Positions 55,833 through 64,000 of a stretch of 64,000 bases of DNA are shown here, piece by piece (within the stretch, counting starts at the first letter, position 1; every line of letters begins with the position of its first letter). The position numbers and the translations under genes were made by a program. This DNA comes from Protonemura montana (lineage: Eukaryota > Arthropoda > Insecta > Plecoptera > Nemouridae): the NCBI GenBank assembly GCA_947568835.1, contig OX387606.1:8742001-8806000 (forward strand), given 5' to 3'. Under the pieces are notes generated by a model. It searched no databases. It saw nothing but the letters and a program-made list of their open reading frames with translations, and was not told the DNA's origin.

Positions 55833-58800
55833 GTAAAAATCTCTTCTCCAAAAAGTGAGGCTAGGAATTGTTAAAGGCCCACCCACCCTTTAAAAAATAT
55901 TCTATTTAACCAGCTCAACTAATTTATGAACATTTTTTTATTTTTTTATAGTACAGACAAGAAAAAACAACCTTTTATGTAGCAAAGTTTCCCATTCTCA
56001 TTTAAATGAATAAAAAAGCATGTAATTCCATACCATACGGACACAGTTGCCTGCAACTGTAGGTAAAATGATCTAGAGTGTGTTACCGTTGATGTTGTAT
56101 CTACATCAACCCCATTGGTTATTTTGGGTGTACGCTCACGTATGCGCTGCACACCTATCTATTTCAATAAGTACGCGCCGCGTACCCACCTTTTCTTGCA
56201 ATAGTGTACGTGGATCACTCATTCAGGGAAAAGTTTGGTCAACTCTTCATTTAAATTCAAGAAACACATGTTATTTTTACAAGTTGGTGAAAATTTTACT
56301 TGGAAATGGCATTTAGTAGAACGTAGGTATATTCACAGAATCTTATCATTCTGAAAAATAAATGCCAAATACACTGGCTCATAATTGTGACTTGGCAAAG
56401 CGATAGCAAGGCTAAGCTTAGCTAAGCTCAGGCAACGCTACCCTTTGTCAGGCAGCACCGGCAAAGCATAGCGAGAGTAAAGAAATTGTTTCAATATTTT
56501 TTGCCTTTTGGCACAGCTTCCCCTTCCCCCGCCAACCCCCAAGAAAACACACGATCTAGAACAGCACCTGAATTCAATTGAGAGCGTACCCACCTTTTTC
56601 GTTTCAAATTAACCACTAATCATCCCAAATCTACCCTTTTTTCAGACAAGCATAGTCAGCATGGTGTACAGCCAATCAGAAATTTTACAAAAAGAAGTCT
56701 ATTTATTTGAAAGAATAGATTTTGGAGCTGGCCAAGAACCTATGAAACATTTGAAATGTATCGTGTTTTTAAGACCCACCAAAGAAAACATAGCTTACTT
56801 GTCAAAAGAGCTTCGATACCCAAAGTATGGTGTATATTATGTTTGTAAGTAATCCATGGATATTTTTATCAGCAAACTGCCTAGTAGTGTTAAACAGATT
56901 TGAGATAGTGACTGTCACCTGTTGCTCTGTCTGATAGTGCTGACTATGTCTTTTTGATACTAGATTTTAGCAACATCATTGCTAAGGCAGATATTAAAAC
57001 TCTCGCAGAATCTGATGAACATGAAGTGGTACGGGAAATCCAAGAGTTCTACGGAGACTACTTGGCCGTCAGCCCTCACTTATTTTCACTAAGCATTCCC
57101 TCGTGTTCCCAAGGTAATAATTTTTTTGCTCAATAATTTGTCTGTTATGTAATTTTTTTTTGACATTTTGTTTAGAAAAATATTGTTTTATCACAGGCTT
57201 GATGTGGGATCCACTTCAGCTGCAGAGAAGTGTCCAAGGCATCACTGCTGTATTGCTGTCATTGAAGAAATGTCCATTTATTAGATACCAAAATAATTCG
57301 GAGATGGCGAAACGTCTGTCTGAAAGAATACGGGTAGGTTTTGAATACTATCAAAACCTCAACTAATTGTTAAGCTTAACTCAGAAGTTAACTGATGCCT
57401 CTTCCTTTTCAGGAAACATTGTCCAAGGAATCGTCGTTGTTTGATTTTCGGCAACCAGAGATTCCACCGCTACTTCTCATTTTAGACCGACGAGGAGATG
57501 CAATCACTCCGCTGCTTAATCAGTGGACATATCAGGCAATGGTACACGAGTTGTTAACTATTGCTAACAACCGCGTTGATCTCTCGAACGTATCAGGAGT
57601 TGCGAAAGAGTTGAAAGAAGTGGTTCTTTCTGCTGAACAAGATGAATTTTATGCCAATAATCTCTACCTTAACTTTGGGGAGATTGGACAGACAATCAAA
57701 GAACTCATGGAAGATTTTCAAAAAAAGGCTAAGAACCATCAGAAAGTTGAAAGTATTGCTGACATGAAGACGTTTGTTGAAACGTATCCTCATTTTAAGG
57801 TAAAAATATAAAAAATAAAAATTTTATTTCAAAGTAAATAAACTTCTTTAGCCCTGCTTACCTATTTACTCAGTACCTATACACCTATTGTTTTTAGAAA
57901 ATGTCTGGAACGGTATCAAAGCATGTCACGGTCGTTGGAGAGTTGTCGTCCCTGGTTGCCAAACACAGCCTGCTGCAAGTCTCAGAGCTTGAACAGGAGC
58001 TGTCTTGTCAGAGTGACCACACACAGCATTTGCAAGTGAGTCGAACTTAATATGTAGTATGAACATACCAACAACTGAATGTAAAATTCTGGTAAAAATG
58101 TTTTCAAGTCCGGTTTAATGGATATATTCATTTCATTTCCCAGTCGGTTAGACGAATGGTGGCCAGTGATCGAATCAGAGACTTGGATGCAACAAGGCTT
58201 GTTCTATTATATGCTCTACACTACGAGAAACATCCAAACAACGACATTTCGGGACTCATTCAAGCTTTAAATAAACGTAATGTTCCTCAGCATCTGTCCA
58301 AGGTAGGATTGTAAGCTGGTGGTTAACTCTAATCAAAACCATAGTCAGGAATTCAGTCAGTTTAATTATTATTTTTACAGGCTATCAGCAACGTAGTGGA
58401 ATATGGAGGAGCTCACGCGACACACACTCAACTTTTACCAACTGATGTTGGAAAAATAACCAAAAGATTTTTTAAGGTATTGTATTTCTTGAGTATACCA
58501 TGAATTATTCAACCTCCATTATTACCTATACACTAATTTACTGGTTTCTTGATATGATTCTATCATTTAGGGCTTGAAAGGAGTGGAAAACGTGTACACA
58601 CAACATAACCCAGTATTGCGAGAGATCTTAGAAGATCTTATCAAGTTAAAGCTGCGAGAGGACGTCTTTCCATTCCTCGGCAGCAACCAGTCAGCACGGC
58701 GAGTGCAAGACGTGATTGTCTTCCTCATCGGAGGCACCACGTACGAGGAAGCGTTCGTTGTGCATCAACTGAACAAAAACAATTCGAGTGTTCGGATTGT

Positions 58801-58903
58801 GCTGGGTGGGACCTACATCCACAACACGACTAGCTTCTTAGAAGAAGTACAAAATGCCACCGAAGGTACGTCAAAACGACATGCCCGATTTAAAGACGTT
58901 TAA
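55740..58903 (+). CDS. Vps45: Vps45, Sec1/Munc18-family SNARE regulator (complete)
   Basis: Nine exons: 55740-55832, 56646-56844, 56964-57113, 57197-57333, 57413-57799, 57898-58035, 58144-58302, 58381-58476, 58571-58903. All introns are GT-AG and phases agree throughout, giving 563 residues against about 570 in animal Vps45. The start [23 protein letters not shown] (18-29), [25 protein letters not shown], the Sec1-family signature [20 protein letters not shown] (215-234), [30 protein letters not shown] and [12 protein letters not shown] match Vps45 closely. Vps45 binds the syntaxin-16/Tlg2 type t-SNARE and assists endosome and trans-Golgi fusion (family knowledge). Introns 2-8 are 78-119 nt; intron 1 is 813 nt. 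It is convergent with CPT1. Confidence 0.97.
55833..56645 (+). other. Vps45 intron 1 (813 nt)
   Basis: AT-rich intron between exons 1 and 2. It includes a 12-bp palindrome, GCTAAGCTTAGC, near 56411. No other feature is seen. Confidence 0.8.
56646..56844 (+). CDS. Vps45: Vps45 exon 2 (residues 32-98)
   Basis: Acceptor TTTTTTCAG|ACA, donor GTTT|GTAAGT. It opens [15 protein letters not shown], the domain-1 segment. It ends one base into a Tyr codon, completed in exon 3. Confidence 0.95.
56964..57113 (+). CDS. Vps45: Vps45 exon 3 (residues 98-148)
   Basis: Acceptor GATACTAG|AT, donor CAAG|GTAATA. It encodes [11 protein letters not shown] and [16 protein letters not shown], conserved in domain 1/2 of Vps45. 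It leaves one base that becomes Gly with exon 4. Confidence 0.95.
57197..57333 (+). CDS. Vps45: Vps45 exon 4 (residues 148-193)
   Basis: Acceptor TATCACAG|GC, donor CGG|GTAGGT. It encodes [29 protein letters not shown] and [12 protein letters not shown]. It ends in phase 0. Confidence 0.95.
57413..57799 (+). CDS. Vps45: Vps45 exon 5 (residues 194-322), Sec1 signature
   Basis: Acceptor CTTTTCAG|GAA, donor AAG|GTAAAA; 129 codons. It contains [18 protein letters not shown] and [11 protein letters not shown], the Sec1-like core, then [23 protein letters not shown] and ESIADMK. Confidence 0.96.
57898..58035 (+). CDS. Vps45: Vps45 exon 6 (residues 323-368)
   Basis: Acceptor TTTTTAG|AAA, donor CAA|GTGAGT. 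It encodes [20 protein letters not shown] followed by the [14 protein letters not shown] segment of domain 3a. Confidence 0.95.
58144..58302 (+). CDS. Vps45: Vps45 exon 7 (residues 369-421)
   Basis: Acceptor TTTCCCAG|TCG, donor AAG|GTAGGA. It encodes [17 protein letters not shown], conserved in the family, and an Asn/Leu-rich stretch before the next intron. Confidence 0.94.
58381..58476 (+). CDS. Vps45: Vps45 exon 8 (residues 422-453)
   Basis: Acceptor TTTTTACAG|GCT, donor AAG|GTATTG; 32 codons including VVEYGG, then a divergent loop, then KITKRFFK joining GLKGVENVY of exon 9. Confidence 0.93.
58571..58903 (+). CDS. Vps45: Vps45 exon 9 (residues 454-563 and stop)
   Basis: Acceptor ATCATTTAG|GGC; stop TAA at 58901-58903. 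It encodes [32 protein letters not shown] and RIVLGGT.IHNT.SFLEEV, the C-terminal Vps45 motifs. The last 17 residues are not conserved. A donor-like AAG|GTACGT lies within the exon at 58865, so a longer spliced tail is possible. Confidence 0.93.
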   Translation, partial: GLKGVENVYTQHNPVLREILEDLIKLKLREDVFPFLGSNQSARRVQDVIVFLIGGTTYEEAFVVHQLNKNNSSVRIVLGGTYIHNTTSFLEEVQNATEGTSKRHARFKDV

Positions 58904-60421: not shown

Positions 60422-63400
60422 CTGTTAACAGAATTGAAAGTGTTTGTAAAAATGTTTTTCTAGGCCAAGTTTTAAGGGTGAGTTGTAAATTGTTGACAAG
60501 TCCTTCTTGTCAATTTTTTGTCGAAAATTTCTCAAGAACACTTGCGACAGCCAGAGAGATTTCCAGCTAATTGATTATATTAGACCCCAATGGAAATTTG
60601 AGATGCCAATTATCAAAGAACCCATTTAATCATGGATAACTTATTATTCATATTCCTTTTCTTTACCAACTCCTATAAATAAATAAACAGACCAGTTTAG
60701 TCATGACGTAATAATGTAAAAGCTTACCGTTTGCGGCGAACTGCGTTTACACGTGATATGGAAGAAGAGCATATCCTCTCCGGCAATGATGTATGAGACG
60801 CCGTATCCGTCGTCGACCACAGGCCCGAACCCGCCGCCCGCCGAAATGCAGTTGGGGTACTTCTTGAGGTCCATCAAAGTGGTTTGTCCGTGAGGGGTCT
60901 GCGATGTTGACAGCCTCCACGGCTCACTGAGCACCTCCTTGAGGAACTCGGAGTCTTCCTCCAGGTACTTGGATACAACGTACATGCAGAACAGATGACG
61001 GTCGATGCCCTTACCGCACATTGCATCCTGGTAGCCGAGTTGGTGCATGTTAGATGCTTTTTGTAGCAGTTGGATGCGGTCTTCCACCTAGGACAAGTTT
61101 TGTGCAGATTTAGACGAGTTTATTTAAATTTTGTAAAAAAAAAAAAAACAATACCATTCACAAAATAACCCTAGACCGTAGAAAAGAAATAAGATCTCAG
61201 TTATTCTAATGAAAAATGTACCATATCATACCATTTGGAAAGTTGTTTTCCTTTTTTCCTCTTTACTTATTCTCAAATTTTGAAATGTAGGTATACAACT
61301 ATTTTCCAGATTTTTTTAGCAAGCTTCATGTAAAATGAAGCACAATATATGAGGGAAAGAAGAAGGTACAATAAAACAGAAAATTAACCAACTGAGCAGT
61401 GAGAGTGGAACCAGATTTGGAAAATAGGTCTCATGAAAAATTACACATAATTCTATACACTCGGTATTTTCTAAAATATGACAATACATGATGAACAATG
61501 AATGCTTTAATTCAGATTAGATTTTGATGATAAAATTAGTCATAATCTTACTGTAGCCTTGGGGTCATCCATCGACCTGACCCAGGCAGACGATTCGATG
61601 GTGCATGGCCTGACGGTTTCCGTTCGACCCTCTCGGAACAACCTGGTCATTGACGCCTCGTATGTCAAGCTGAATCGTCCAGAATCCTGCACATCATAAG
61701 AGTGTCAAAAGTGTAACAAATCGGGTCATAGAGCCTAGCCATCAATACAAAACTTACCCGATAATAGGCCAGCTGCAGGGCCATCTGTATGTAAGCATCT
61801 GGACTGATGCGGCAGTCTTTCATAAATCCTTTTCCATATCCGTTGTGCAAGAGAATGCGCAGGTCAACGTCATTCAAAAGGCCAAGCGCAGTCTGAGAAT
61901 TGATGAGGCAGTTTAGTTAATAAAGTAGAATACCAGTGACAAAAAATACATAGGTACATTCAAATGGTTTACCAGTTCCTTGATAACATTTATTGATATT
62001 TTATGGGAATAATATAGAAAGGGAGTAAATTTGTTATTCCAATACTCAAAATTTAACACTAACAAAAATTCAAGCACCTCCTATTAGTTCAGGCATAAAT
62101 GCTGGTTAAACATAATTTGTTTTCCCCCTGTATGGCATTTTTTTTAGTTGGGTAGGTAAAAAAATCTTTCAAAATTGAAGTTGTCTAAATGTGAGTAAAA
62201 TATCTCACCTTGGTCATATGTCTTACTTAGTTATGACTTCCATACTTTCATTATCTGGATTTGCAAAAATAAATAAACATCAAACAATATATTTTAATAC
62301 AAGTACATTTTTGCCAGAGAATTTTCAGAAGTACCTGGTAGGAGCTGTCAATGACAGAAAGGCACTGACTGCCGAGGTCCCACTGCAATCTAGTCGGCGT
62401 AGGTGGAAGTAGCTCTGGTTCGCCTAACGTATGTCCGTCATCGCGGTATCTGCAAATTCAGCGATCAAAAATGATGATGGCGTCTAGGGAAGGCAGCTGT
62501 GCCATAATTAGATTTATTTGGCGTATTTCAAATAAGCAAAGCCGAGAAAAAAGCAGATGGAAAAGCAGAGGCAGAAACTTTACAATTTATAATCTTTAAA
62601 TAAATCAATGTAAGCTTGAAAGCTTACAGCAACAAGACGTTTCAAGTTTGACAATAAAATTACTTGGCATTTTTGGGAAGAGATTTGACAATCAAAATTT
62701 AATTAAAACGCACGTTAAAAAATGTATATAAAATAGCAAGCCAAACAAAACCAAACAAAACTCAACAGCACAATACATGCAGGAAACATTTGGTAAGCAG
62801 GAATTGGATGGAGCTTTTTGTTTGATAAATGATGCTCAATCAGAGCGAATAAACTGATGATTATGAATAAAATATAATGGTACACGGTTTTAGATTTGAA
62901 ACGTTAAATTGTATATGGAATGATATGCATGAAAGTATGATGTAAATGTTACATAATTAATGGGCATAGGAAAGAAATAAGGAAGCGAATGATATAAGAC
63001 AAGGTCACAACACAACTCCTGTCTAAAGTTAGCTTTAGAGTTAAATTCAAACCTATGCAAACGTAACACGTATTGAACAGTTACCCGTCGATTACCTATT
63101 TGAAAGCTCTTGACAAATACAGTACTCCCACATATGGCCCAAGACTGGCGCATCAGCCCTTCAAGCAACGAGATTAAAAGAAAATAATTAACGTTTGTCA
63201 TCGATGTAAGCTAGCGACACAATACCGTAACCAACGACAGCGTTCGCCTGCAATATGGCTAAAAAATAAAGAAATTATAAGTAAATGGAAGAGGAAAGCA
63301 AATAAAATAAAGAGGCAGTGCAGTCAAGAAGAGTTTGTCTTTGAGCTGACAGGCTGTTTGGGGAGGGAAATTCTTTTACCGAACGTTCATCATCTCCTCG

Positions 63401-63445
63401 CAAATGACGAACTCCCAGAGATGTGACATGACAGCAGCGTCGGCC
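60326..63445 (-). CDS. CPT1: carnitine O-palmitoyltransferase 1, C-terminal half (5' end off the window)
   Basis: Minus-strand exons 63380-63445 or 63096-63158 (alternatives), then 62335-62449, 61758-61892, 61552-61686, 60728-61087 and 60326-60421. All phases agree and give about 300 residues of an enzyme normally near 770. Diagnostic motifs in order: ADA..(S/G)[83 protein letters not shown] (the carnitine-site STS motif), [20 protein letters not shown]1 transfers long-chain acyl groups from CoA to carnitine at the mitochondrial outer membrane, the controlled step of fatty-acid import (family knowledge). GIDRHLFC and the STSQTP region distinguish it from choline or carnitine acetyltransferases. 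The N-terminal membrane segments and catalytic His lie to the right. Introns of 306, 464, 71, 442 and 646 nt hold nothing else apart from an A14 run at 61135-61148. Confidence 0.96.
60728..61087 (-). CDS. CPT1: CPT1 exon with STSQTP and GGGFGPV
   Basis: Acceptor TTGTCCTAG|GTG, donor ACG|GTAAGC; 120 codons. It carries [36 protein letters not shown] and [20 protein letters not shown], the C-terminal catalytic-fold motifs specific to long-chain CPTs. A long insect-like [16 protein letters not shown] stretch separates the last two. Confidence 0.97.
61552..61686 (-). CDS. CPT1: CPT1 exon with [20 protein letters not shown]
   Basis: Acceptor ATGTGCAG|GAT, donor ACA|GTAAGA; 45 codons in phase 0. 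[19 protein letters not shown] is one of the most conserved stretches of the carnitine acyltransferase family and contributes to carnitine binding (RTET). It follows a 71-nt intron. Confidence 0.96.
61758..61892 (-). CDS. CPT1: CPT1 exon with NDVDL and YGKGF
   Basis: Acceptor ATTCTCAG|ACT, donor CGG|GTAAGT; 45 codons in phase 0. It encodes [19 protein letters not shown] followed by [20 protein letters not shown], the region around the CoA/acyl channel in the family. Confidence 0.95.
62335..62449 (-). CDS. CPT1: CPT1 exon with RDDGH and PTRLQWDL
   Basis: Acceptor ATTTGCAG|A, donor CCAG|GTACTT; one base plus 38 codons. It encodes [16 protein letters not shown] and [13 protein letters not shown], matching the Y.(E/D)DGH and PTRLQWD motifs of CPT1. 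It exits in phase 0. Confidence 0.94.
63096..63158 (-). CDS. CPT1: CPT1 alternative exon, proximal (3') copy
   Basis: 63 nt between acceptor GCTTGAAG|G and donor AATAG|GTAATC. It encodes [20 protein letters not shown] plus two bases for Arg, about 12 of 21 positions identical to the distal exon and one codon shorter. Start and end phases are the same, so either copy joins the flanking exons cleanly. ADAP and GH.WEY match the vertebrate CPT1 sequence better than the distal copy does. Confidence 0.85.
63380..63445 (-). CDS. CPT1: CPT1 alternative exon, distal (5') copy
   Basis: 66 nt between acceptor TTTTCTCAG|G and donor GTTCG|GTAAAA. The first base completes the Trp codon of the HSW motif from the exon outside the window. 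It encodes [20 protein letters not shown] and V, plus two bases completed to Arg by the 62449 exon. It keeps the H.WE of the family. Its 63-nt homologue lies at 63096-63158 in identical phase. Confidence 0.88.
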
Positions 63446-64000
63446 CTGAGAAAACAACACGGTGCAATGACGTCTTAACTTTCAACTCGAATCTCTCGGC
63501 AGCATTTCGTAGCACACCGCAAGAACACCGAAGCAAACAAAAATAATAATAGAGTTAGTTAGCTTACCAACTGCAATGTGTGTTTTTTTTTATCAGTGCA
63601 CACTTTCCAATGTGCGTACATTTTTCAGCCACTCAAACATGCATACATCAAATGAGAAATTTGGCAATTTTTTTAGGAACTTACAAATATTTCTCATTAG
63701 CCATTATACATATTATTATCATTTTTCTAAATTAATCATTTTGTTACCAAATCAAATTATTTCAGCTCTGGAAATATTAGAGACGAAAAAATAATATTTA
63801 TAGTCGTTTCAAGCGGCCCACACTTTCCACCCTCCCACACACTGACCGCGAGTTGTGACTGATGTGAATTGATGACAATTTGGCAAAACATTCACTGAGT
63901 ATCGTGCCTCTGCCAGGGCACTGGTAGTGTATGGATGTGGTCAGAAGTCCACATTTAACTCGAAGTGGGGCAGAAGGTACACAAGATATAATATATGACA
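63446..64000 (-). other. CPT1 intron upstream of the alternative exons
   Basis: No CPT1 exon ending in the expected HSW with two trailing bases is visible here, so the upstream exon with the catalytic His lies beyond the window. I see no other feature. Confidence 0.7.

Follow-up and report, generated by a model that had tools for sequence, protein, structure and literature searches.

A pair of small homologous exons, lying side by side on the minus strand just after the catalytic His of a CPT1 gene, is very probably a tandem-duplicated alternative exon of the kind that is already known from the fruit fly. They were found in a window of 64 000 nucleotides (G000:C4:8742001-8806000) from a plecopteran genome of 258 Mb in 34 contigs. 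Judged from sequence, the exon pair is real and very likely functional. Two CPT1 enzymes would result if splicing places either exon 7A or exon 7B between exon 6 and exon 8; they would be identical save for the segment of 20-21 residues that separates HSW from an Arg. Both transcripts are presumably made in this species.

Gene identity and coding model

The carnitine acyltransferase catalytic domain (PF00755) is matched by exon 9 (61758..61892, 135 nt), exon 10 (61552..61686, 135 nt) and exon 11 (60728..61087, 360 nt), all on the minus strand and placed by their splice sites as well; exon 8 on its own gave no match in the Pfam scan. For isoform B, the joined protein has matches to CRAT, COT, CPT2 and ChAT chains within parts of residues 162-771. 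A CPT1-type N-terminus is also present, as residues 1-49 match 2m76 (E 5e-8) and residues 1-42 match 2le3 (E 2e-7), both of which are CPT1 N-terminal entries. A protein of this class is predicted to be active at the mitochondrial outer membrane and to be sensitive to malonyl-CoA. A whole-genome search with PF00755 placed 43 exon matches, among the best candidates scored, in six gene clusters. The other five clusters, each classified from one piece rather than from the whole gene, have their best matches in CRAT (on contigs C1 and C3), CPT2 (C16), ChAT (C15) and COT (C4, near 5.5 Mb), and no second CPT1 gene was found among the six clusters of best-scoring candidates.

The genome itself looks insect-like by its sequence markers. 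It contains 129 matches to 7tm_6, the insect odorant receptor family, and one match to PBP_GOBP. The pattern (TTAGG)5 has 15,571 overlapping matches, versus 1 for the reversed pattern, TTAGG being the common insect telomere repeat. Arrays of this repeat also occur inside the 33-Mb contig G000:C1 (for example at 916562, 963644, 1042484 and 11637666), in some cases at a distance of millions of bases from the contig ends.

CPT1 lies on the minus strand and extends beyond the edge of the window, and the gene model was completed with flanking DNA, whose positions (above 64000) are given in window-equivalent numbering. The complete model has 12 coding positions, from exon 1 (71816-71676) to exon 12 (60421-60326), the latter placed by frame and splice site and contributing 96 coding nt including the stop codon. 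Its introns are GT-AG and a single open frame is kept with either alternative exon; the predicted protein has 774 aa when 7A is used and 773 aa when 7B is used. Exon 7A (63380..63445, 66 nt, 21 residues, donor gtaaaa) is supported by splice sites, phase and frame; it is separated by an intron of 221 nt (63159..63379) from exon 7B (63096..63158, 63 nt, 20 residues, acceptor gaag, donor gtaatc), and exon 8 follows (62335..62449, 115 nt). The first-pass annotation, made within the window, had described two minus-strand exons of 66 and 63 nt lying 221 nt apart, and we recovered them with the coordinates, lengths, spacing and phases that it gave.

The catalytic His-Ser of CPT1 is carried directly 5' of the alternative pair by a 26-nt microexon, exon 6 (64239-64214, minus strand), which lies outside the window and encodes VGFNAEHS plus the two bases TG. 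Its sequence, GTTGGTTTCAATGCAGAGCACTCGTG, is bounded by ttacag on the upstream side and gtaagc on the downstream side. Intron 6 (64213-63446, 768 nt) connects it to exon 7A and has its 3' part (63446..64000) in the window.

Two neighbouring loci were noted in passing. A Sec1-family gene (PF00995), Vps45-like by eye, has plus-strand exons at 57392-57808 and 58571-58900 and is convergent with CPT1; the other eight of the ten open frames scanned alongside these exons had no Pfam match. Upstream of CPT1 (G000:C4:8813801-8823800, minus strand), frames resembling an ADP/ATP carrier and a PDZ protein were recognized by eye.

Phase, homology and residues of the exon pair

Exon 6 ends CAC TCG TG, which supplies the codons of the catalytic His-Ser and the first two bases of a Trp codon, and exons 7A and 7B each open with the G that completes this Trp codon (TG/G). 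The earlier proposal that both exons complete the Trp of HSW therefore holds; it had been an inference, because the exon holding HS (64239-64214) is outside the window, and the placement of the duplicated segment directly after the catalytic His is borne out in the same way by exon 6 immediately upstream. At the other end, exon 7A stops with CG and exon 7B with AG, and the A that opens exon 8 completes CGA or AGA, so that both copies end two bases into an Arg codon as had been described. Up to and including this Arg, the peptide of copy A has 22 residues and that of copy B has 21.

The two copies are clearly homologous. In 100,000 shuffles of copy B, the BLOSUM62 global score of 63 between the two peptides was never reached (maximum 30), and among the 127,882 six-frame 20-mers of the window they are each other's best non-self match (ungapped score 74), with the next-best 20-mers scoring 24 for copy A and 26 for copy B. 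Identity over 20 codons is 36 of 60 for bases and 11 of 20 for residues. Synonymous sites differ at about 10.7 of 10.8 and non-synonymous sites at 13.3 of 49.2, a contrast with a Fisher p of 7e-6 or 2e-4 depending on rounding. Since nearly all synonymous sites have changed while only about a quarter of the non-synonymous ones have, both copies appear to have long been kept as coding exons. The pattern suggests that the duplication is old and that its copies have been retained as protein, in a comparison of two copies that does not imply equal constraint on each; with synonymous change saturated, the age of the duplication is not readable. There is no third copy among the six-frame 20-mers of the window, nor on the gene's strand between 72000 and 60300, where an 18-mer scan scored the two copies at 107 and 97 and the next candidate at 25. 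Mutually exclusive exons are characterized in the title of PMC3228551 as neighbouring, of similar length, of the same phase and homologous in sequence. The present pair is neighbouring and homologous, at 66 and 63 nt, and has the same start and end phase.

Counting by offset from the catalytic His, we placed the equivalent of human P479 at an Ala in copy A and a Pro in copy B, and the equivalent of human L484 at a Met in copy B; the acidic residue four after the His is kept in both copies. The P479-equivalent is Pro in three CRAT chains. A pattern search of the five other genes in this genome located the site in three of them, with Pro in the CRAT-like gene on C3 and Val in the CPT2 and ChAT genes, and gave no pattern match in the C1 and COT genes. 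In humans, the Arctic variant P479L has a blunted malonyl-CoA response. Both P479L and L484P are listed among human CPT1A deficiency variants, with His473 as the catalytic residue, in the portion of PMC10076611 available to us.

Splicing outcomes and exon choice

Translation of the four possible splice outcomes left inclusion of A, of B and of both exons open, the last with a protein of 795 aa. Skipping of both joins the TG of exon 6 to the first base of exon 8, an A, and a transcript of this form would meet an in-frame UGA (TG/A) right after His-Ser at the 6-8 junction. The reading frame thus removes the double-skip form and leaves the double-inclusion form, and exclusivity is not forced by phase, in agreement with the first-pass annotation, which had observed that both exons together stay in frame. 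Strict exclusivity and tuning by tissue are putative in this species.

Of the ten other donors of the gene, nine have a G at +5, which is lacking in the donors of both 7A and 7B (p 0.045). Among the 12 acceptors, that of 7B is the one that reads AAG. Trans-acting splicing factors reading weak sites would be the likeliest basis of exon choice. In Drosophila, altered splicing factors acting on the CPT1 transcript raise triglyceride, according to the available text of PMC10352773. In the A-B intron, a pyrimidine-rich stretch (63260-63338, minus strand) ends in ttttttag, with its AG at 63260-63259, some 100 nt before the weak acceptor of 7B is reached. It could serve as a decoy; joining exon 6 there would add 20 residues followed by a stop.

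Exclusivity might instead be arranged in cis, through competing RNA structures, through steric crowding or through splice sites of incompatible classes, rather than by trans factors on weak sites. Mechanisms of this kind are described for other exon clusters in the accessible parts of PMC6071210, PMC8042237 and PMC7969005; we consider them unlikely here, as no cis-acting basis for exclusion was found in splice sites, intron lengths, pairing or folds. Pairing among the three introns was within the range of shuffled sequences (z 0.37, -0.17 and -1.63, with values at least as low in 37, 24 and 6 of 60 shuffles), and the z of five local folds ran from -0.74 to 2.04 versus shuffles, so that competing structures, evaluated in one species, gave no signal. 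Steric exclusion was set aside with an A-B intron of 221 nt while the same gene has an intron of 71 nt (intron 9, before exon 10), and U2/U12 incompatibility with none of the 12 introns listed opening with the U12 pattern tested. In OGDH, exclusivity of exons 4a and 4b is enforced by a distant branch point in the part of PMC7969005 that was consulted. The A-B intron has seven AGs before the used 7B acceptor, the nearest 52 nt upstream, and for this reason does not look like the OGDH design. A local hairpin of 11 pairs is predicted at the end of exon 7A by its donor (63380-63410, minus strand), in a 91-nt fold that does not stand out from shuffled sequences (z -0.74).

Routine inclusion of both exons, always or often, would yield a CPT1 with a repeated post-His segment. 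The open 795-aa frame and an intron between the copies that, at 221 nt, exceeds the 71-nt intron of the same gene are compatible with it, but it would add 22 residues beside the active site, and the Drosophila precedent consists of two isoforms; we consider it very improbable. Equally remote is the use of a single copy, with the other surviving as a dead relic exon. The +5 positions, the AAG acceptor and the Ala of copy A, at a site that is Pro in copy B and in three CRAT chains, would suit decay, but 11 of 20 residues are kept at saturated synonymous change and both frames are open between GT-AG sites in matching phase.

Relation to known CPT1 systems

The alternative use of 7A and 7B has a close counterpart in Drosophila melanogaster, whose single CPT1 gene (withered, whd) makes two isoforms by alternative splicing (PMC7767417); the present gene is likewise the one CPT1 found in its genome and has two predicted isoforms. 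The first-pass annotation had suggested that the Drosophila alternative-exon system is present here, and the identity of the gene as CPT1, the lack of a second CPT1 among the clusters found and the place after the catalytic His all support this.

A 2010 study by Price et al. reportedly found a single CPT1 gene with two alternative exons in every insect genome then sequenced, and is said to describe the alternative region as 21 residues that are essential for binding substrates and malonyl-CoA. The place of the present pair presumably matches that of whd, a stretch of 21 residues close to the sites for substrate and malonyl-CoA. We found one CPT1 gene whose catalytic His is directly followed by two homologous exons of some 21 residues each, and the pair fits the whd system in gene, place and size. 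The plecopteran pair differs from whd in that copy A is one residue longer than copy B (22 versus 21, including the Arg).

Vertebrate CPT1A and CPT1B also differ in the same segment. As CPT1 variants they likewise have different kinetics and tissues, according to the available source text; they are separate genes, however, whereas alternative exons of one gene are used here. OGDH exons 4a and 4b similarly tune a mitochondrial enzyme by tissue, according to the accessible part of PMC7969005.

By analogy with reports from Drosophila, the exchanged segment would tune substrate affinity and malonyl-CoA response, and the latter may differ between the isoforms here. The Rhodnius fat body counts against malonyl-CoA tuning: malonyl-CoA was without effect on its beta-oxidation, and no physiological effect of malonyl-CoA on the rate of insect beta-oxidation has been shown, in the portion of PMC10352773 available to us. 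A switch of three states could also be imagined, with 7B carrying Pro, 7A carrying Ala and perhaps a blunted malonyl-CoA response, and double skipping turning the gene off through the UGA by unproductive splicing; we think this improbable. No description of the UGA on double skipping or of the Ala/Pro difference was found in the literature searched, which was seen in part and did not cover Price et al. 2010, and we claim no novelty for either.

The UGA on double skipping and the Ala in place of the P479-equivalent Pro leave the overall picture unchanged. The plecopteran gene adds one insect to the case in which a single CPT1 gene can cover ground that vertebrates divide among separate CPT1 genes, through an exchange of about 20 residues beside the active site.
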